Assembly (NCBI GenBank): GCA_902386255.1
Contig: CABMII010000007.1
Location: forward strand, 1 to 34,543
DNA: 34,543 nt
Origin: an uncultured archaeon
Lineage (GTDB): Archaea > Halobacteriota > Methanosarcinia > Methanosarcinales > Methanoperedenaceae
Direction: 5' to 3'
Both the position numbers and the translations under genes were made by a program. This document shows, piece after piece, positions 6,310-15,380 of this stretch. Within the stretch, counting starts at the first letter, position 1, and the number at the start of each line of letters is the position of its first letter. The notes under the pieces are model-generated. The model was not told the origin of the DNA. It saw nothing but the letters and a program-made list of their open reading frames with translations, and made no database searches.

Positions 6310-6364
6310 GGTAATTATTACAGGTGACTTACAGTAATCATTTCAACTTGGTTCTCATAACTCC

Positions 6365-6416
6365 ATCTATAGTCTTATCGACGATAGCTTTATCTATAGT
6401 CTAACCGAAGAGACTA
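6365..6416 (+). promoter_or_regulatory. Direct repeat plus hairpin upstream of the FilR1-type regulator
   Basis: ATCTATAGTCT occurs at 6365-6375 and again at 6392-6402, 27 bases apart (about 2.5 helical turns). The second copy ends in TAGTCT, which pairs with AGACTA at 6411-6416 across an 8-nt loop. The site lies 40-90 bases before the regulator's ATG, a natural place for an autoregulatory operator. No experimental counterpart known to me. Confidence 0.4.
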
Positions 6417-6456
6417 AATTGAGTGGTATCAAAAATCTCCAAGGAAGTTTATTTCG

Positions 6457-7245
6457 ATGAAATCGAGAGGGCTATTAAGTGTTCTAGCATTTTCAGAGAA
6501 GCGAGAAAATATTCTCTTTTTGCTACTCGAAGAACCAAGGACTTTAGCTGAAATTAAAGACCATTTCAATATATCTTCTCCAGAGATTCTCCCCCGCATC
6601 AAGGAAATGGAAACCAAGAATTTAATTTACAAAGATAATAAACACTATGTTCTAACCCCAATTGGAAAAGTTGTAGCCAAGTTTTTTCAGCCATTAATCA
6701 ATACTTTGCATGTAATCGAGGAAAATGAAGAATTCTGGGAAAAACATATGGTCGAAGCTATTCCACAACACTTTTTGGAAAGAATTGGTGAATTAGGAAG
6801 TTGCGGATTGGTTGAAAATAGATTGGAAAATATGTACGAACCACATACAGAATTTTTTGAAAATATAGCAAAATCAGAATTTGTAATGGGAGTCGCCCCG
6901 ATATTTAATCCAGCCTATCCATCGTTCTTTTTACAGTTGGCTCAGCGAAAAGTTAGCATAGCTCTGATCTTAACTAAAAATGTTTTTGAGAAAGTTAAGA
7001 ATGAGCATGGGAATAACCTTCAAAGATTTTCCGATTACAATAATACAAGCGTACACATTTTAGATGAGGACATTAAACTTGCTTTTGTAGTAACCAGCAA
7101 ATTTCTCTCCCTTTCTCTCTTCTTTAAAAATGGCACTTTCGATGCCCAGAGAGATTTGATAAGTTTTGATAAATCTGCTTTAAAATGGGGAGAAGAACTT
7201 TTCAAATATTATAAAGAGCGCTCCGAAGAAATAAAGCGTTTATAA
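6457..7245 (+). CDS. Winged-helix transcriptional regulator, FilR1/DUF1724 type
   Basis: 262-aa protein. Residues 10-75 are a winged helix: FSEKRENILFLLLEEPRTLA, EIKDHFNISSPEILPRIKEM as the helix-turn-helix, then a wing ending in YVLTPIGKVVAKF. Residues 110-255 match the FilR1/DUF1724 effector domain of methanogen regulators (PHTEFFENIAKSEFVMGVAP and the NTSVHILDEDIKLAFVVTSK region). This group is expanded in Methanosarcinales; a few members regulate methane-metabolism or filamentation genes. The gene converges on the UbiA-like gene, and the two coding regions overlap by 44 bases tail to tail. A repeat upstream may be its operator. It could control the neighbouring peptide operon, but nothing shows this directly. 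Confidence 0.85.
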   Translation: MKSRGLLSVLAFSEKRENILFLLLEEPRTLAEIKDHFNISSPEILPRIKEMETKNLIYKDNKHYVLTPIGKVVAKFFQPLINTLHVIEENEEFWEKHMVEAIPQHFLERIGELGSCGLVENRLENMYEPHTEFFENIAKSEFVMGVAPIFNPAYPSFFLQLAQRKVSIALILTKNVFEKVKNEHGNNLQRFSDYNNTSVHILDEDIKLAFVVTSKFLSLSLFFKNGTFDAQRDLISFDKSALKWGEELFKYYKERSEEIKRL

Positions 7246-8074
7246 GTAGCCGCAGGCTAACTTCAGTAGTAGATTCACCATCGACCAAGAACTCACGTAT
7301 AAGTTTCCTGGCTCTTGGTTCGGTTTCGGTAGCTACGGAATAATAATTAATGCAGATTATGCCAGCAGTGAAACTATACAAAAGTATTATTGGCTCAAAC
7401 ACAATGAATCTCATAATGATCGCAATGAGCATGCCTAAATGTATCATTATATGCATAATCGAAAGAAAAGCCTTGGTCTTCTTTTCACCTAACTGTACAG
7501 GTAAAGTTCTGATACCAGCCAGCGAATCGCCCTTTACATCTTTAAAATCATATATTATCGAATTTATGAAAACCTTGCTACTGAAAAAAGAGAAAACAAA
7601 AATTAACGGAATAATATTGTTTACGGATTTTCCAGCAATCCCGGTGATAAAGGATCCCCACGTCAAAGCAACAACAAGATTCTTAACTCCAAGGCCGCCC
7701 TTAAGCTTCAAATTTGATCCACAGATTTTTATGCCTTTGCTATACAAATAACCAACTACAAGTGGCAGAAAAGGCAAAATGTATAATCCCTCTTCGAATA
7801 AAATGTAGGTTCCAATGATAAAGGCTGAGATGGACACAAGAAAAGCAATATCTCTTCTTGAGCCCATTAATTCGCTTCTGTTTACTATATCTTCTTTGCA
7901 TTCAAGTGTCCTGTCCAGAGTATATATTGTATATATCACAAAACCACCTGCTATACAAGCTAAAACTCTGGATTCTGTTCCAAGGAAAAGAGTTGCTATG
8001 AAGAGCCTGAAAGCTCCTGAAATCGCCACCAATGTTGAAGCATTCAGAAGATGTACTGTTGCTTTGAATCCCAT
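7202..8074 (-). CDS. UbiA-family membrane prenyltransferase
   Basis: 290-aa integral membrane protein with about eight hydrophobic segments. UbiA enzymes transfer isoprenyl chains from a diphosphate to an acceptor, using two Asp-rich motifs on the cytoplasmic face. Here the first is YTLDRTLECKEDIVNR (about residues 52-67), and the second is IYDFKDVKGDSLAGIRTLPV (about 165-185), which is typical. The first motif lacks the usual Asn-Asp opening, so substrate cannot be guessed. The gene lies 99 bases after the FAD oxidase on the same strand and may end the peptide operon or have its own promoter (TATAAT-like sequences sit in the gap). Acceptors in this family include quinones, haem, chlorophyll and archaeal lipids. 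Confidence 0.85.
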   Translation of the reverse strand: MGFKATVHLLNASTLVAISGAFRLFIATLFLGTESRVLACIAGGFVIYTIYTLDRTLECKEDIVNRSELMGSRRDIAFLVSISAFIIGTYILFEEGLYILPFLPLVVGYLYSKGIKICGSNLKLKGGLGVKNLVVALTWGSFITGIAGKSVNNIIPLIFVFSFFSSKVFINSIIYDFKDVKGDSLAGIRTLPVQLGEKKTKAFLSIMHIMIHLGMLIAIIMRFIVFEPIILLYSFTAGIICINYYSVATETEPRARKLIREFLVDGESTTEVSLRLLINALFLRSALYNI

Positions 8075-8173: not shown

Positions 8174-9394
8174 TTAAAGCAAATGTTGTACTTGCTCCGC
8201 TGCTTTTTTTCCAGAGGATATGGCGGCTGACATCCCATATGGCATGAGATGGTGACTATCCACATGAGTATAGTCACCTGCTAAAAAAACGCGCGGTGAC
8301 GGATGTATTTTTTCTTCAGCCCAGGCACCATAACATACCTTCGAAATAATAGGGCTGATCATGTCCCAGTGATGATGGTCGGCGAATTTTATTTGTTCCT
8401 CCCTAATGCTAAAACCCAAGGCATCAAGAGTTTGCAACGCCATTTTCACCATTTCTTTTGCATGCAATTTACGCACTGGCACGGATTTAATTCCCATGAA
8501 GTAAAAGTATAATAATATAAGGCCATCAACAGCGGTTTTCTGCCGCACAACGGTACTGGTAGCAAGGTCCGGGGTAGCAATGTACGAAAACTCAGGAATC
8601 AGGTTTTCCGGTATTGCTAAAACGCACAGACTTCCTGTGCCGTAACGAATTCCATCCAAAAAAAGTCTGCTGGGGCTTTCTGCACGGACGATAACCTGAG
8701 ATGCTTCATGGGCTGGTATCGAGCAGATAACGGCCTTTGCAGAAAGGTGCGTAATTTGGCCCCCCTCATCGACAGTAACAACAACATTTTGTCCCTGATC
8801 ACTGATACTGAGTACCTGAACCCCGCAACGAAGCCGCGATGATATACTCTCAATCAAGCCGGCAATCAACGCTCTATTGCCGGTTTCATAATGTCCCATC
8901 TGAAATACTTGAAAGGCATCAAGCCTCCTTTGAGGAATATATTCACATATCTCACCTGGGTGAATCAACTGAAAAAAAGCATTTAACAACTCGTACGATG
9001 GCGGGGAAAGGTCAGATATATCCTGTGCGCCTCCTTTGACAAAAGCAGTAATCTCTTCGATCTCATTGTTGTGAAACTCAATTTGTTCAAGACAATCCAC
9101 AACACTTTTGCCAAACCAGGTGCGTCCATTCGAACAAACTCCTATATTGCCATATTCTTCGATCAGTGATGGCGGAGCGATCCCGGCCGGGAAGAATGTC
9201 GGTTCAGTAGCAAAAACTGCTCCGATTTCATAGCTTACTCCCATTTTTTCACGGGTAAGCACGCGCCCTCCGGCATTCGTTTTTTGTTCAAGCACCAAAA
9301 TGTCTTTATCACGCAATGCGTTTGCTGCGTAAAGCCCGGCCAATCCGGCGCCGACAACTATTACATCCTTACATTCGTCTTGAAATCTTTCCAT
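8174..9394 (-). CDS. FAD-dependent amine oxidase/desaturase-like oxidoreductase
   Basis: 406 aa from ATG 9394, chosen because AAGGGATCAA precedes it and the FAD motif then begins near residue 10; an in-frame ATG at 9436 would overlap the upstream gene by 31 bases. The N-terminus VIVVGAGLAGLYAANAL is the dinucleotide-binding fold, followed by LEQKTNAGGRVLTREK, the GG-R signature of flavin amine oxidases, protoporphyrinogen oxidases and phytoene desaturases. The C-terminus RVFLAGDYTHVDSHHLMPYG closes the FAD site. It starts 11 bases after the prenyltransferase-like gene, so it is in the same transcript. A role oxidising the modified peptide or an isoprenoid is inference. Confidence 0.85.
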   Translation of the reverse strand: MERFQDECKDVIVVGAGLAGLYAANALRDKDILVLEQKTNAGGRVLTREKMGVSYEIGAVFATEPTFFPAGIAPPSLIEEYGNIGVCSNGRTWFGKSVVDCLEQIEFHNNEIEEITAFVKGGAQDISDLSPPSYELLNAFFQLIHPGEICEYIPQRRLDAFQVFQMGHYETGNRALIAGLIESISSRLRCGVQVLSISDQGQNVVVTVDEGGQITHLSAKAVICSIPAHEASQVIVRAESPSRLFLDGIRYGTGSLCVLAIPENLIPEFSYIATPDLATSTVVRQKTAVDGLILLYFYFMGIKSVPVRKLHAKEMVKMALQTLDALGFSIREEQIKFADHHHWDMISPIISKVCYGAWAEEKIHPSPRVFLAGDYTHVDSHHLMPYGMSAAISSGKKAAEQVQHLL

Positions 9395-9405
9395 TTGATC
9401 CCTTG

Positions 9406-10224
9406 CTAATAATACAGATTGAAGCTGGAACAACAACCGCTTTCGACCTCTGCTTGATCCAGTGAGATGATCACCTTTTGCGCGCCGGAAAGGCGGTAAG
9501 CGTCAGAGAGAACCGGATGGTGGAGATTATCAATGAACATCTTAGGATTCCGGGGAAACAAATGAAGTGAAAGTCCTGCTTCTTTCGTAGTGAAGCCGAA
9601 GTTTACCCATTTGCATTGTTCGAGCAACGCCAGAGTACGTGCCCCAAATAGGATGTTCAGTAGGCTACGAGATTGTTGGATATGGGATGTGTGCAACACG
9701 GGATAAACTTTTACCGCAGTTCCACCGTCTAGTCCAAAATCAAAGCCAAACAGCAAACCTGGCTGAATCTTCAAAATCCGTGCAATTGGAGATATTTCTG
9801 GGAAGTTAAGAACCATTGCTTCTTTCTCAGGATAGTGTTCGATAATATGCCACAGTTTCACACGCGATGCGCTTGATTGTGTCCGGACATCTATCCCTAA
9901 AGATGTGCACTTCACTTTGTCATATTGAAAATCCGTACCGACAAGTTGCTGATAAAGGGAAAAGTTCAATGGGAAGGCTTGTGCATAATTTTTCAGGAAA
10001 GTAACTATTTTGGGATTAAGACTGAATTCTCCACTATTCTTGTACCAGAGGTTAAACCGCAATGGATGCACGGCCTCGCCACATACTTTACAGGAGCATT
10101 CCAGATGAGCTTCGGGCGAAGCCCTCAATAAATCCAGAAATGGAACACAAAGCGGTGTTGCTCTGGATGCAAAGGATGTCAAATGCCTGCGGTATTTTTC
10201 TATTTGCACATTTGCTGATTGCAT
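9406..10224 (-). CDS. Probable LynF/TruF/PatF-like peptide prenyltransferase (ABBA fold)
   Basis: 272-aa soluble protein. Laid beside my memory of cyanobactin PatF, several blocks line up in the same order: an N-terminal H-x3-F...P-x5-F segment with a later SC(K/Q)V (ECSCKVCGEAVHPLRF); SLGIDV next to S-x-V-(K/M)-L; FGFDFGLDGGTAVKVYP next to IGFELFFDGRSRVDLGP; a basic ILFGARTL block; and the C-terminal EVESGCCSSFNLYY next to ELEKSRLENFCFYY. Cyanobactin enzymes add dimethylallyl or geranyl groups to Tyr, Ser, Thr or Trp of ribosomal peptides. Length (usual about 300) fits. It lies 20 bases after the radical SAM gene and 11 before the FAD oxidase. The position in a peptide-modification operon supports the call, but similarity is weak and needs structural confirmation. 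Confidence 0.6.
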   Translation of the reverse strand: MQSANVQIEKYRRHLTSFASRATPLCVPFLDLLRASPEAHLECSCKVCGEAVHPLRFNLWYKNSGEFSLNPKIVTFLKNYAQAFPLNFSLYQQLVGTDFQYDKVKCTSLGIDVRTQSSASRVKLWHIIEHYPEKEAMVLNFPEISPIARILKIQPGLLFGFDFGLDGGTAVKVYPVLHTSHIQQSRSLLNILFGARTLALLEQCKWVNFGFTTKEAGLSLHLFPRNPKMFIDNLHHPVLSDAYRLSGAQKVIISLDQAEVESGCCSSFNLYY

Positions 10225-10244: not shown

Positions 10245-11678
10245 TTAGATGGCGCGAGGTGGCATTTTGGTTTGATGCGGACAGTCCGGCGGGGCTTCGT
10301 ATATAGTACCGTAACAGGCAAGAGAATCCCTGAAACACCATCCTTTCACATATATACATCTTGCAAAATCGGTACAATTGTAACATGCAGAATTTTGAAA
10401 AAGTTCGCGTGAGGGATTATTGAATCGGTGTATAGCATCGGAATTCCATACGCCCATAACTCCGTCTTCGAAAACATTCCCTACCGTATAAGCTGGTTCA
10501 TTTGGCGTTTGTTCGCATAAGGTAACTGCGCCATCCGGCTTTACTAACATTTTGGTGCGCCCTCCTGAACAATTCGGTCGTTTTGCCCAAACCTCGGGTG
10601 CAAGATTCCTGGGTCCGCCAGTTGAAACATCCTTTTGCATGAATACAAAAATATCAGGAAATTCTTCCTTGATCTGGCTCTCCATAGATATAAGGCGTTT
10701 TTTCTGTTCTAGGTTCAGGAAAAGCCTGTCGTTGTGCCGGTAAAAGCCCCGGCTGTACTGAACAAAATGAAACTCGTTTATCCCCATCGGCGCAAGACGC
10801 CTAACCAGTTCCAATGGAGCATCAGCATTATGTGAAGTAAGCACCGCTTTTACTCTTGGACTGATTCCGGCTTCGATCAGGTTTCGAAGAGTATCTTGCG
10901 CTTTGGAAAAATAGTTCTCGTGCCGTGTCAAAAAAGAAGCGAGCCTGCCATCAGTGCTGTCCAGGGATACCTGCATGGGACGCAGCGCCCAGTGGGACAC
11001 GTCTTTATTACCTATGTTCAAGTCAGCCATCCTTTGAGCCTGCTCCGGTGAAATATGGCTTTTTGTGGAAACAAAGAATGAAAAATTCCGTTTGTCTAAC
11101 TCTTCCATAATTTCCAGGGCATCATGGCGGCAAAAAATATCAGCGCCGCCAATATCGACCAATGTAATTTCATTTTCTGCGATTTCATCCAGAATAGGGA
11201 TCCATTCATCCAGACTACGCTCAGCACATTGCTCACGTTCAGCATAACAGTAAATACAGTCGCACTGGCATCGGTTGGTAAAGCTGATGGCGATGGTGAT
11301 AGGACGCAGCATCCTGTGCGGTGTCATCGTGTAGTTGGCAAAGTCCGGGATCAGGTTTTCCATGGGCTTGTCAAAGGAAGGGGACCGTGGTCCTTCCAGT
11401 GAAAAAAAGCCATCCAGATGGGCAAGTTCAGTAGTAATCTGCTCAATTTCCCCGGCACTTTGCCCGTCGGTAGAATTTATTATTTCCTGTGCCGCTGTTT
11501 TTATCTCTGCCCATGTATTATTCCCATCAAAAAGAAGAATAAATATCGATTCAAAAGGTGAAAGCACACGTGCAACTTGCTTTTTCAAGGAATGCAAATA
11601 TATCACCGTGCAATTGCCATCATTCCTGAAACGCCAATTTTCCGATATCATCGGCCTATCCGTATCTGAAAATATCAT
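10245..11678 (-). CDS. Radical SAM/SPASM peptide-modifying enzyme with PqqD-like N-terminal domain
   Basis: 477 aa. Residues 10-95 look like a PqqD-type RiPP recognition element (LSPFESIFILLFDGNNTWAE is the typical central helix). The radical SAM core carries FTNRCQCDCIYCYAEREQC, i.e. CX3CX2C for the SAM-binding 4Fe-4S cluster. The C-terminal SPASM region has RPNCSGGRTKMLVKPDGAVT, LCEQTP, and then the cysteines of SACYNCTDFARCIYVKGWC, enough for two auxiliary clusters. Such enzymes install thioether or carbon-carbon crosslinks, or epimerise residues, in ribosomal peptides. The start has CAGGAG before ATG. The precursor-like gene lies 150 bases upstream and the prenyltransferase-like gene follows at 20 bases. 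The chemistry on this peptide is not predictable. Confidence 0.92.
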   Translation of the reverse strand: MIFSDTDRPMISENWRFRNDGNCTVIYLHSLKKQVARVLSPFESIFILLFDGNNTWAEIKTAAQEIINSTDGQSAGEIEQITTELAHLDGFFSLEGPRSPSFDKPMENLIPDFANYTMTPHRMLRPITIAISFTNRCQCDCIYCYAEREQCAERSLDEWIPILDEIAENEITLVDIGGADIFCRHDALEIMEELDKRNFSFFVSTKSHISPEQAQRMADLNIGNKDVSHWALRPMQVSLDSTDGRLASFLTRHENYFSKAQDTLRNLIEAGISPRVKAVLTSHNADAPLELVRRLAPMGINEFHFVQYSRGFYRHNDRLFLNLEQKKRLISMESQIKEEFPDIFVFMQKDVSTGGPRNLAPEVWAKRPNCSGGRTKMLVKPDGAVTLCEQTPNEPAYTVGNVFEDGVMGVWNSDAIHRFNNPSRELFQNSACYNCTDFARCIYVKGWCFRDSLACYGTIYEAPPDCPHQTKMPPRAI

Positions 11679-11828: not shown

Positions 11829-11993
11829 TTACCAATGCCAGCCGTTTGCACATGAATCACAGCCTACTATAGCTGCCTTATGGGCTTCTGTTACGGCTTC
11901 CTTCAAAACCTTCGCATCGACATTCACATTTTTTGCCTTCAGTGCTTTCTGAAGGGCGGAAATTCCCTTTTCCTTATTGGTCGCGTCACTCAT
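11829..11993 (-). CDS. RiPP precursor-like peptide (54 aa) with C-terminal GCDSCANGWHW
   Basis: The start at 11993 is set by AAGGAGGTGAAAACT, a near-perfect ribosome binding site; an upstream in-frame ATG (12023) lacks one. Residues 1-42 are a charged amphipathic leader, beginning MSDATNKEKGISALQKALKA and ending in TEAHKAAIV. The last 11 residues, GCDSCANGWHW, hold all the Cys and Trp of the protein: a CxxC pair and a WxW end. That composition suits radical SAM crosslinking and Trp prenylation. The gene heads the operon with radical SAM, prenyltransferase-like and FAD genes, and is opposed by a divergent Ntn hydrolase. No double-Gly cleavage site is visible; cleavage before or near Gly44 is a guess. 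I know no described family with this core. Confidence 0.75.
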   Translation of the reverse strand: MSDATNKEKGISALQKALKAKNVNVDAKVLKEAVTEAHKAAIVGCDSCANGWHW

Positions 11994-12053
11994 AGTTTTC
12001 ACCTCCTTAACCATTGAATGCAATGTTCTAAAGTCCTCTTATTTATTAGTAAT

Positions 12054-12307: not shown

Positions 12308-13723
12308 ATGAGACAAGATGAAATACTTAAAAAAGCACGGTTTAAAGAACAAAATGGCGTAAAGATTCTGCACATTAAAGGCAAACCATATGAGATGGGA
12401 TTTCAGCATGGCTATTTATTGGCTGATAAAATTGCCCTTATGATAAACAGGACGCTTCTGGCTACTGCCGCTTATGTTGCCAAACAGACCGACTCGGATC
12501 TTAAAAAAGCGCAGGAGATGTTGTGGAGCGGACAGAAAAAGGCGGAACCCTTTATTCCGGTGGAGTTTAAAGAAGAAATGAGGGGGATCGCTGACGGCGT
12601 AAAAGCCGCCGGGGTTGGCGTGACATTGGAGCAGATATTGCTCTGGAATACCAACTATGACCAGTGGTGTATCTATGCCCATCCCCACTGGCAGGGCGAC
12701 AGCGGGGAAAATCCGGATACTCAAGGCTTAACCCAACCTGCTGGCGGCGGATGCAGCAGCTTTTGCGCCTGGGATGAATGGGCAGGCGGCGATGGCAAAT
12801 TGATTTTCGGCAAGAATGAAGATAATTTCAACATGCCGGAGCAACTGGATAACCGGATGATGGTCATAGCCGACCCGGATAACGGGTTTGGTCATGCCTT
12901 CCTGTCTTATCCCGGGATGATCGGGCTGGACGGGGGCTTAAATGAGAATGGTTTTGAGATGATGACCCAACTGAATTCCATGCAATACGAAAGCATGGCA
13001 GGATGTGGTATTGCCATATTCACACGCCTGTTGCTGACCCATGCAAGTACGGTGGATGATGCCATCAAAATATTCCAGGAGCACCCCCGTTGCGCAGGCA
13101 TTGCATACCATGTTGCAGATGCCAAAGCCAAAAAGGCGGCGGTTGTTGAAACGTCTTCCAGAATGGTTTCTGTTCGTTATCCTATGCCCAACGTCAAGGC
13201 GATGTGGCAGACAAACCATTCAAACTGCTATCCGGGCTGGACGGGTTATTCGGGATACAATATGGTTGCAGACCAGGTCCTTGTGAACGAACTAAAGGAT
13301 ATTTCCACTATTGAAAAATGGCAGAACAGCCTCAAAGAGCCGTATAATTTTTATGTCCAGGCGCCCAGCCGTTTTGAACGGTACAGGCAGTTGATCTACG
13401 ACGAATATCGCGGCAAAATCACTCCGGAAAATGCCATAAAAATATTAAGCGACCGCTACGACCCATATACGAAAATGACCCGTCCGGCGGATTTTCCCTC
13501 GTATACTAATAATATCCTCTGCACCATATGCGCCATGTATCCTGATTATACTTATCAGGCACAAGAGCCTGTTGGAACGTTTAAAGCCCATGTCGCCAAT
13601 ATGTGGAGCCTTGTGGCTTATCCCGGAACCGGAGATATCTGGCTTGCAATAAATAACTTCCCGGCGCAGTATGGCGGGTATGAACATTTCAATCTAAAGG
13701 ATTTGCTGGGTCGCATGCGTTAA
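12308..13723 (+). CDS. C45-family Ntn hydrolase/acyltransferase-like protein
   Basis: 471 aa. Residues 20-45 (ILHIKGKPYEMGFQHGYLLA) are the usual opening of the C45/acyl-CoA:6-aminopenicillanate acyltransferase-like and phospholipase-B-like group. The likely nucleophile is C149 in PAGGGCSSFCAWDEWAG; in this family self-cleavage exposes the Cys as an N-terminal nucleophile. FGKNEDNF after it and ALNLNENGFEMM-like GGLNENGFEMMTQLNS further on are family features. No signal peptide is seen, so the enzyme is probably cytoplasmic. Such enzymes hydrolyse or transfer amides. It is divergent from the peptide operon over a shared 284-bp region; leader removal or acylation of the peptide is possible but inferred only from position. 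Confidence 0.8.
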   Translation: MRQDEILKKARFKEQNGVKILHIKGKPYEMGFQHGYLLADKIALMINRTLLATAAYVAKQTDSDLKKAQEMLWSGQKKAEPFIPVEFKEEMRGIADGVKAAGVGVTLEQILLWNTNYDQWCIYAHPHWQGDSGENPDTQGLTQPAGGGCSSFCAWDEWAGGDGKLIFGKNEDNFNMPEQLDNRMMVIADPDNGFGHAFLSYPGMIGLDGGLNENGFEMMTQLNSMQYESMAGCGIAIFTRLLLTHASTVDDAIKIFQEHPRCAGIAYHVADAKAKKAAVVETSSRMVSVRYPMPNVKAMWQTNHSNCYPGWTGYSGYNMVADQVLVNELKDISTIEKWQNSLKEPYNFYVQAPSRFERYRQLIYDEYRGKITPENAIKILSDRYDPYTKMTRPADFPSYTNNILCTICAMYPDYTYQAQEPVGTFKAHVANMWSLVAYPGTGDIWLAINNFPAQYGGYEHFNLKDLLGRMR

Positions 13724-13741
13724 TATGGATGTTATGCTCCG

Positions 13742-13767
13742 CTTTGCGTTCTCAGCGCCTTTGCGGT
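13742..13767. repeat. Interspersed repeat fragment, CTTTGCG type
   Basis: The 26 bases from CTTTGCG to TTTGCGGT are the reverse complement of 16566-16591 with three mismatches. One arm of the same hairpin repeat lies here, between the C45 gene and a convergent gene. Confidence 0.65.
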
Positions 13768-13791
13768 GATTTATCCAATCCATCTCAAGAA

Positions 13792-14271
13792 TTAAATATA
13801 CGCTCTTCTCAGCCTGTCCTTATGCTCATTATATTTTTTTCTGAAAGACGGGTCATCCATCATCTTATTGACCTGGAATTTAAGTTTTTGTTCCAGCGCC
13901 GCCTGTTTGTTTGAAAGAAGCTCCTTGCATAAAAGATTTGATGAATCCGAAGAATACGTCTGTATCCCTCCCATAACAATCGAAATTCCCCTGTTCTGTG
14001 GCGTCATTGTCCCGAATGGCACAGGTGAGCCGTCTTTCATTATTTTTTCAAGGTCATTGTCATAGCGCGATACTTCCGCGCCGACTGCGACAAATTCACC
14101 TGGCTTGACTTCCTCGGATTTAATCTGCCATAACTTGCTCTCGCCGCCGATAAAAGTATCATGATACTCGCGGTTCATGCCTGCAAGTACCCGCCATCTT
14201 GATTTATCCCTGCTTTTATCGTATGATTTTTTCATTGTTCCCATGAGGGAGCTGACGTTCTTGATTGCCAT
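13792..14271 (-). CDS. Hypothetical protein translationally coupled to the AAA ATPase
   Basis: 159-aa basic protein; no family recognised. Its ATG shares a base with the stop of the AAA ATPase gene (TAATG), so it is co-translated with it. The N-terminal third is Lys/Arg/Ser-rich (MKKSYDKSRDKSRWRVLAGM), the middle has a compact Gly-rich, probably beta segment (KPGEFVAVGAEVSRY; PFGTMTPQNRGISIVMGGIQ), and the last 55 residues are helical and charged. It may be a substrate adaptor, partner or regulated subunit of the ATPase. Mentioned as a pair because the overlap implies a fixed ratio. Confidence 0.7.
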   Translation of the reverse strand: MAIKNVSSLMGTMKKSYDKSRDKSRWRVLAGMNREYHDTFIGGESKLWQIKSEEVKPGEFVAVGAEVSRYDNDLEKIMKDGSPVPFGTMTPQNRGISIVMGGIQTYSSDSSNLLCKELLSNKQAALEQKLKFQVNKMMDDPSFRKKYNEHKDRLRRAYI

Positions 14272-15380
14272 TATGCAAACATTCCCCTCGGAGGTTCGGA
14301 TTTCTTCCCGATTGCATCTTCAAGCGCAGCCTCAAATTGGGCTTTTGTTACCTTGCCGCCTGAAAGTATGGCTTTATGTAGCGCATTCTTGAGCACTTTT
14401 TCAACAAGGTCTCGCCCCGAAAAGCCCGCTGTAGCCTTCGCTATGGCTTCAAGATTCACGTCTTTTCCGAGTTTCCTTGGGAAAGTGGCTGAATAAAGTT
14501 TGAGGATTTCGTACCGTTCTTTGAGTGTCGGGATGGTGAATTCAATCTCTTCCTCAAAACGACTGCGTATTGCAGGGTCAAGCGTATTGAGCATATTTGT
14601 GGCTGCAATGGTGCAAATCCCTTCACGCTCATCTATTCCGTCCATCTCGGTGAGCAGGGCATTTACAATCTCGGCCACATCGCCCCGAATTTCCTGATAG
14701 CTGCGGTTAAGCGCGATTGCGTCGAATTCATCTATGAAAATTATGCAGGGCATGAGTTCCTCTGCTTTCTCATATAACTGGTGTATCTGGCGCGCCCCGT
14801 CGCCCACGAACTCGCCTATGAGCTTGGTTGCCCGCACGGGCAAAAACGGGACGTCCGATGCATTTGAAAGCGCTTTTGCCATCATGGTTTTTCCGGTGCC
14901 CGCAGGCCCGTGGAATAAAATGTTCTTTGGCAGCCATTTCCCGAATTTCTCAGGGTTTTTAAGAAAACTTTCAATAAGTTTGCATTTCTGCTTTGCTTTT
15001 TCCTGTCCTATGATATTCTTGAATGTGATTTCACTTTTAGTTTCAGGAACGAAAAAATCCGAATCATAATCCTCGACCACGAATTTTGTATTCTTGCCGA
15101 TTTCCGAGTTATCAGGTTCAACGTTCACGACCTTGAAAGCAAAATCAGGGAACATTCTCCTGTCAAACAGGAAGTCTCCTTTTTTCACTACAAATCCATT
15201 CCACTGCTCTCTTGCATAGAACTCAAAAACATCCAGTTCGCAGGGTTCAGGATATTCGTGGAACATACCTTTTAACGGGTAACCTGCCGGCTTTACAACC
15301 ACCGTTTTCGCTCCAAACCCTTTCAGGTTTGATTTGAATTTATTGCTTTTTTTATTGTTTACCCGTTGTTTTGCTCGCAT
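14271..15380 (-). CDS. AAA-family ATPase, Cdc48/PAN-like single-ring type
   Basis: 369 aa. Residues 1-115 form a beta-rich N-domain (PAGYPLKGMFHEYPEPCELD, FVVKKGDFLFDRRMFPDFAF). The AAA core follows: FKNIIGQEKAK, Walker A GPAGTGKTMMAKAL, pore region near ATKLIGEFVGDGARQIHQL, Walker B CIIFIDEFDAIA, sensor ATNMLNTLDPAIRSRFEEEI with the arginine finger, and a lid with AGFSGRDLVEKVL. The C-terminal LEDAIGKKSEPPRGMFA is a short tail. One AAA domain and 369 aa is smaller than Cdc48 or PAN. It probably remodels or unfolds protein complexes in the cytoplasm; the coupled unknown protein is a candidate partner. Proteasome activation cannot be claimed: no clear HbYX end. Confidence 0.88.
   Translation of the reverse strand: MRAKQRVNNKKSNKFKSNLKGFGAKTVVVKPAGYPLKGMFHEYPEPCELDVFEFYAREQWNGFVVKKGDFLFDRRMFPDFAFKVVNVEPDNSEIGKNTKFVVEDYDSDFFVPETKSEITFKNIIGQEKAKQKCKLIESFLKNPEKFGKWLPKNILFHGPAGTGKTMMAKALSNASDVPFLPVRATKLIGEFVGDGARQIHQLYEKAEELMPCIIFIDEFDAIALNRSYQEIRGDVAEIVNALLTEMDGIDEREGICTIAATNMLNTLDPAIRSRFEEEIEFTIPTLKERYEILKLYSATFPRKLGKDVNLEAIAKATAGFSGRDLVEKVLKNALHKAILSGGKVTKAQFEAALEDAIGKKSEPPRGMFA

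Follow-up and report, generated by a model that had tools for sequence, protein, structure and literature searches.

Analysis of the window (the whole stretch of 34,543 nucleotides, which is contig C7 in an archaeal genome of 2.6 Mb, related to Candidatus Methanoperedens on the evidence of homologous loci) reveals a compact minus-strand operon of four genes that encodes, in this order, a precursor peptide, a radical SAM/SPASM maturase, a prenyltransferase and an FAD amine-oxidase-like enzyme (Table 1), and that probably constitutes a RiPP pathway of Methanosarcinales making a terpene-modified peptide. Comparison of the loci shows that the predicted precursor, maturase, prenyltransferase and FAD oxidase genes travel as one unit. 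The complete unit is present in six genomes (the window and loci L002–L006), and no further close copies were found in 34 genomes of the family and 186 genomes of the order.

Table 1. Features of the predicted operon in the window.
Feature	Position	Strand	Basis
FAD-dependent amine-oxidase/phytoene-desaturase-like enzyme	8174..9394	-	PF01593; likely start ATG 9394
Allele-swapped C-terminal two-thirds of the prenyltransferase	9400..10000	-	breakpoints within ~75 bp; nucleotide identity, trees
ABBA peptide prenyltransferase, LynF/TruF/PatF (cyanobactin F) family, 272 aa	9406..10224	-	PF19156; fold match KgpF 8ye0
Radical SAM/SPASM peptide maturase, 477 aa	10245..11678	-	PF04055, PF13186 above cut-off
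Possible PqqD-like RiPP recognition domain, maturase N-terminus	11343..11678	-	top PDB match of profile PqqD 5sxy, E 0.11 (marginal)
RiPP precursor gene, 54 aa	11829..11993	-	ORF, conserved homologues, purifying selection
Predicted core GCDSCANGWHW, residues 44–54	11832..11864	-	invariance in seven precursors; GCDQCSNGMRW in the M. acetivorans-type copy; cut site only presumed
Shine-Dalgarno sequence TAAGGAGGTG of the precursor gene	12000..12009	-	sequence; similar sites in L002, L004, L005

The precursor ORF runs from an ATG at 11993 to a stop codon at 11829, and its product, MSDATNKEKGISALQKALKAKNVNVDAKVLKEAVTEAHKAAIVGCDSCANGWHW, carries Cys 45 and 48 and Trp 52 and 54 all within its last 11 residues, exactly as the first-pass annotation had observed; the chance that four random residues would all fall in the last 11 of 54 positions is 0.001 (330/316251). 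The near-perfect ribosome binding site described there is likewise present, the minus strand ahead of the gene reading TAAGGAGGTGAAAACTATG with a strong Shine-Dalgarno sequence. Besides the chance figure, it is homology that settles the matter: homologues with 57–93% identity adjoin the same maturase in six genomes, the closest pair has a dN/dS ratio of about 0.17 (0.040/0.238), and positions are conserved, so that by these comparisons the ORF is a real gene. No protein family match was found for the peptide in Pfam or NCBIfam.

Alignment of the seven intact precursors from the six genomes (window, L002–L006), which is gap-free, shows 8 invariant positions out of 11 in the tail versus 17 out of 43 in the leader; the expectation of a conservation confined to the tail was thus borne out in that the tail is the most conserved part, but the leader is conserved as well. 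The reading as a RiPP precursor would have sat badly with freely varying C-termini or with precursors lacking a maturation enzyme. Instead, C45, C48 and A49-N50-G51-W52-H53-W54 are identical in all seven sequences, giving the constant ending C..CANGWHW, all seven adjoin a maturase gene, and the only precursor found without one is a leader cut by a contig end in the Methanoperedens genome G027. Residues 46–47 are variable (DS, EG, EQ or AQ), and a tandem pair of precursors (L005; L040:3775-4184) is identical except for an E to A change in the core (DCEQCANGWHW and DCAQCANGWHW). The precursor has a single C-terminal core, with no recognition sequence behind it.

The maturase contains the radical SAM motif C137xxxC141xxC144 and seven invariant cysteines in the SPASM region (370, 388, 432, 435, 441, 448 and 466), these Cys being constant across eight sequences, Methanosarcina relatives included, down to 34% identity. 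The C441–C448 spacing is X6, unlike the X3 usual at this position of SPASM domains. Its top NCBIfam match is the mycofactocin maturase TIGR03962 (58.6 bits versus a cut-off of 265), and all curated NCBIfam RiPP-maturase (equivalog) cut-offs are missed by a wide margin. Concerning the N-terminal domain, the Pfam search was empty; the profile of the first 110 residues has PqqD (5sxy) as its top match in the PDB with an E-value of only 0.11, which is suggestive of a PqqD-like recognition domain, and the AlphaFold model, which is poor (pLDDT 41), gives no proof of one. One Methanoperedens genome also encodes a further, paralogous radical SAM protein whose N-terminus is weakly PqqD-like (L050:6592-8010, contig G007:C86); it is preceded by an ORF of 46 aa (6336-6476) ending YVCGKARFSWA, possibly another RiPP unit.

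The assignment of the prenyltransferase to the cyanobactin-type ABBA peptide prenyltransferases is close to certain, from profile matches and predicted fold alike. The protein passes the gathering threshold of PF19156 (69.3 bits versus 28.8), a family that only two genomes in a sample of 394 from the phylum contained, both of them Methanoperedens; with 82 bits (E 4.6e-23) it lies below the curated cut-off of 140 of NCBIfam TIGR04445 and would stand outside the core of that family as a divergent relative. The best sequences in the PDB are SmiF (9vt8, 4e-29) and KgpF (8ye0, 2e-26). Searching with the AlphaFold model (pLDDT 75), Foldseek ranks KgpF 8ye0 first (E 2e-17, TM up to 0.81), followed by LimF, DciF, PagF, PirF and PatF, all ABBA barrels of cyanobactin type. 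KgpF, which prenylates Trp (PMC5331326), is 24% identical to the window enzyme. Two positions of LimF that bear on donor size, H239 and W273 (mutated in PDB 8je4), align to F223 and I252 of the window enzyme, and to I223 and I252 of a second allele described below, for which the same relatives are ranked first. Besides Trp, prenyltransferases of the cyanobactin type can have Tyr, Ser, Thr, His and Arg residues or termini as targets, and His53 is available in the core, so that Trp is a probable and not a certain target.

The first-pass annotation gave two leads for such a tail, radical SAM chemistry and Trp prenylation of the KgpF type; genes for both lie directly downstream of the peptide and are co-conserved with it, and the reading of the peptide as a RiPP precursor is well supported. 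The FAD enzyme gene is found in all six loci and also beside a prenyltransferase fragment in a further Methanoperedens genome (G019), where the end of the prenyltransferase gene and the FAD gene lie at a contig end. A full-length maturase occurs in 4 of the 34 genomes of the family. No additional gene family is common to most of the six loci, and they have no conserved gene for a protease, exporter or receptor dedicated to the pathway. A UbiA prenyltransferase (7202-8074) was discarded as a pathway part: the two-gene block that it forms with a FilR1 regulator (6457-7245) is turned round with respect to the RiPP operon in L002 and is missing around L003–L006. A C45/AAT autoproteolytic hydrolase (12308-13723), transcribed divergently from the precursor with a common intergenic region, was discarded as leader peptidase, occurring in only two loci (window and L002) and being split in L002. 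Plasmid, viral-contig and viral-fold searches yielded nothing useful.

More distant homologues of the maturase are found at 42% identity in G414 and G488 (Methanosarcina group) and at 33% in G196 and G323. The first of these genomes we tentatively take to resemble Methanosarcina acetivorans C2A, hence the label M. acetivorans-type. Here (locus L035; the genome is a single contig of 5,751,492 bp) the precursor ends in VGCDQCSNGMRW, with the tail GCDQCSNGMRW, and precursor and maturase are followed downstream by genes for a 281-aa protein and for a 412-aa terpene-cyclase-like protein. The latter matches single-domain class II terpene cyclases (8paj, 1e-57; MstE, 3e-24) and carries the acid motif DADSTA; the window cluster has no such MstE-like cyclase and carries the FAD enzyme instead. 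The 281-aa protein has no match in Pfam or NCBIfam and none to an ABBA enzyme in the PDB, but a short ABBA-like stretch, G-[FY]-[DE]-F...G...K.Y, lies at the right place; this one short motif, with weak values (P 0.01 by hhalign; 9.8 bits by hmmsearch for the L036 homologue), is suggestive of an ABBA enzyme. In G488 both the precursor and the 281-aa gene contain frameshifts. In G196 and G323 (L037 and L038) the precursor ends in VGCGFCEVCITACTDCVAYS; VGCxxC is kept, Trp is absent and no prenyltransferase gene lies close by, and the maturase of G323 is split. This RiPP-like precursor-maturase pair of the Methanosarcina group (L037:7196-9017, L038:7888-9710) has a Cmr-like type III CRISPR operon on one side and an apparent CRISPR array on the other. 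The M. acetivorans-type cluster has its insertion site between two related MATE efflux genes (L035:4281-5807 and 12873-14309), which are retained in genomes without it. The MATE transporter, MarR and Cache-cupin genes are regarded as context and not as cluster parts, since they are kept in relatives lacking the cluster.

Copies with a prenyltransferase or an ABBA-like protein end in Trp. Across the three architectures, VGCxxC goes with the maturase and Trp with the prenylation genes, which suggests that the radical SAM enzyme acts on Cys and the prenyltransferase on the last Trp. The CxxC...WxW tail singled out at the outset is upheld for its Cys pair, whereas WxW is not a constant of the family at large, the M. 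acetivorans-type copy having MRW; as far as these alignments go, what endures is the Cys pair, joined by a C-terminal Trp in copies that have prenylation genes.

Evidence for the mobility of the unit comes from copies in other families. The maturase and prenyltransferase of the window are 86–87% identical to those of G441 and G463, whereas the methionine-synthase-like protein shares only 58% and 56%, respectively, with its counterparts in these genomes; on this comparison the four-gene cassette has moved between families. The G463 copy lies left of Cache-cupin, MarR, MATE and further genes, as at the G414 cluster, which argues against mis-binning of its contig, an argument that covers G463 alone, the G441 contig being only 5.4 kb long. 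In G372 and G501 the insertion site is present and the cluster absent. PurL was abandoned as a divergence yardstick, other families carrying a shorter, apparently non-orthologous form.

Within the cassette, the nucleotide identity between the window and its nearest relative L002 (maturase 93%, FAD gene 90%) is mostly 82–97% and drops to 37–62% in one sharply bounded stretch from about 10,000 to 9,400. Inside this segment the window is 33–65% identical to L002, L003 and L004, with mostly 82–97% on both sides, and 84–96% identical to L005 and L006, which belong to other families. In the trees, window and L002 are joined by the maturase (97/94) and by the FAD enzyme (91/91), whereas the C-terminus of the prenyltransferase places the window with L005 and L006 (100/100). 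By identity and phylogeny, recombination has exchanged about two-thirds of the prenyltransferase (about 600 bp), and two alleles exist. The second allele always occurs with EG between the two Cys, the first with DS, EQ or AQ; the number of events is small, and the pairing is suggestive of a matched specificity between core residues 46–47 and the prenyltransferase allele.

Taken together, we propose that the maturase would bind the leader, possibly via its PqqD-like N-terminal domain, and act on C45 and C48, most likely by thioether crosslinking, although for thioether formation on this Cys pair we see about even chances. The prenyltransferase would attach an isoprenoid to the indole ring of Trp54, Trp52 or both, archaea having all donors from DMAPP to GGPP; prenylation on Trp is probable. 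The FAD enzyme would then oxidise the product, and a housekeeping protease would remove the leader. For the M. acetivorans-type cluster we envisage prenylation by the product of the third gene and folding of the chain into rings by the MstE-like cyclase. The product would most likely be released as a lipopeptide signal or antagonist and not be retained as a cofactor. We regard the former as the likelier role, because sporadic presence, transfer from family to family and allele swapping speak more for a variable product that is exported than for a core cofactor; the clean swap of prenyltransferase alleles is itself a hint that selection acts on the identity of the product, which would be expected of a signal or weapon. 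A bolder version, conceivable but to our mind more probably wrong than right, is that of an archaeal RiPP class in which a CxxC...W precursor and a single radical SAM maturase would be paired with exchangeable modules for terpenylation, in one case a prenyltransferase of cyanobactin type with the FAD enzyme, in the other a divergent ABBA prenyltransferase with a terpene cyclase. The products would be peptides with cyclised terpenes that serve as strain-typed signals, the swapped alleles amounting to a pherotype switch.

The top NCBIfam match of the maturase and the FAD oxidase within the operon, together with the almost invariant tail of the Methanoperedens-type copies, could also be read as the signs of a redox cofactor like PQQ or mycofactocin, in which the radical SAM enzyme would decarboxylate or crosslink the C-terminal residues, the FAD enzyme would oxidise them and a small prenylated cofactor would be released. 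We consider this improbable: the maturase score lies far under the family cut-off, the precursor ends in NGWHW where the mycofactocin precursor MftA ends in CGVY, and the tail becomes GMRW in the M. acetivorans-type copy. Moreover, no cofactor-dependent dehydrogenase or other consistently common gene was found around the loci, and this lack of partner enzymes, with the patchy presence and the swapping of alleles, makes a cofactor less likely.

Radical SAM/SPASM enzymes are also known to make W-x-W-type bridges, and since WHW is invariant in the Methanoperedens-type copies, a darobactin- or triceptide-type product bridged between Trp52 and Trp54 can be envisaged, with His53 or another residue left to the prenyltransferase, among whose structural matches LimF figures. 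The wider family, however, keeps the maturase while losing WxW (MRW in the M. acetivorans-type copy, no Trp in L037 and L038), and no darobactin-type NCBIfam model is among the 25 maturase matches listed, which leaves this reading unlikely. As CxxC pairs often bind metals and the peptide has no family match, the tail might finally serve to bind a metal or an iron-sulfur cluster in a small protein that is left unmodified, with incidental neighbours; this is highly improbable, every intact copy adjoining the maturase and the unit having moved between families as a block.

The terpene-modified RiPP remains our preferred reading. The window cluster would then direct radical SAM chemistry, peptide prenylation and flavin oxidation to one 11-residue tail, with terpene cyclisation as an additional predicted chemistry in the M. 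acetivorans-type relative. If G414 is M. acetivorans C2A, a tractable methanogen, the sister cluster would be accessible without cultivating an anaerobic methane oxidiser. Of the open-licence papers searched, none describes an archaeal RiPP that is prenylated or terpene-modified; the archaeal RiPPs characterised in that literature are lanthipeptides, with sactipeptides and ranthipeptides listed there from genome mining.

Compared with known systems, the window maturase has the domain architecture and the seven SPASM-region cysteines in common with MftC, AlbA and StsB, but falls below all curated equivalog cut-offs. Kawaguchipeptin KgpF, the nearest characterised prenyltransferase, belongs to the same family by sequence and predicted fold; the window system differs in its archaeal host, its radical SAM partner and the lack, among the four co-conserved genes, of PatA/PatG-type proteases and macrocyclisation enzymes. 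MppC, the prenyltransferase of a cyanobacterial lanthipeptide, is an ABBA enzyme acting on a core Trp of a leader-bearing, crosslinked RiPP (PMC12715784), as predicted here, but its lanthionine rings are made by a LanM enzyme and not by a radical SAM enzyme. In what a 2026 review (PMC13290415) states on NctPC, this ABBA enzyme fused to an MstE-like cyclase, of low similarity to the cyanobactin ABBA enzymes, geranylgeranylates Trp (C20) and then cyclises the chain. As far as that account goes, this chemistry resembles the M. acetivorans-type gene pair, G414 having as two genes an apparently unfused version of the single fusion. The closest biological analogy is ComX of Bacillus, a pheromone with mosaic alleles. 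Its precursor has 53–58 aa and a prenylated Trp within four residues of the C-terminus, and its prenyltransferase ComQ is FPP-synthase-like, of a family different from ABBA (PMC5331326). The ComX system differs from the window cluster in this unrelated ComQ-type enzyme, in having no radical SAM step and in the receptor gene in its operon, of which none is seen in the window cluster. The predicted window peptide is like ComX in the size of its precursor and in the position of its Trp near the end.
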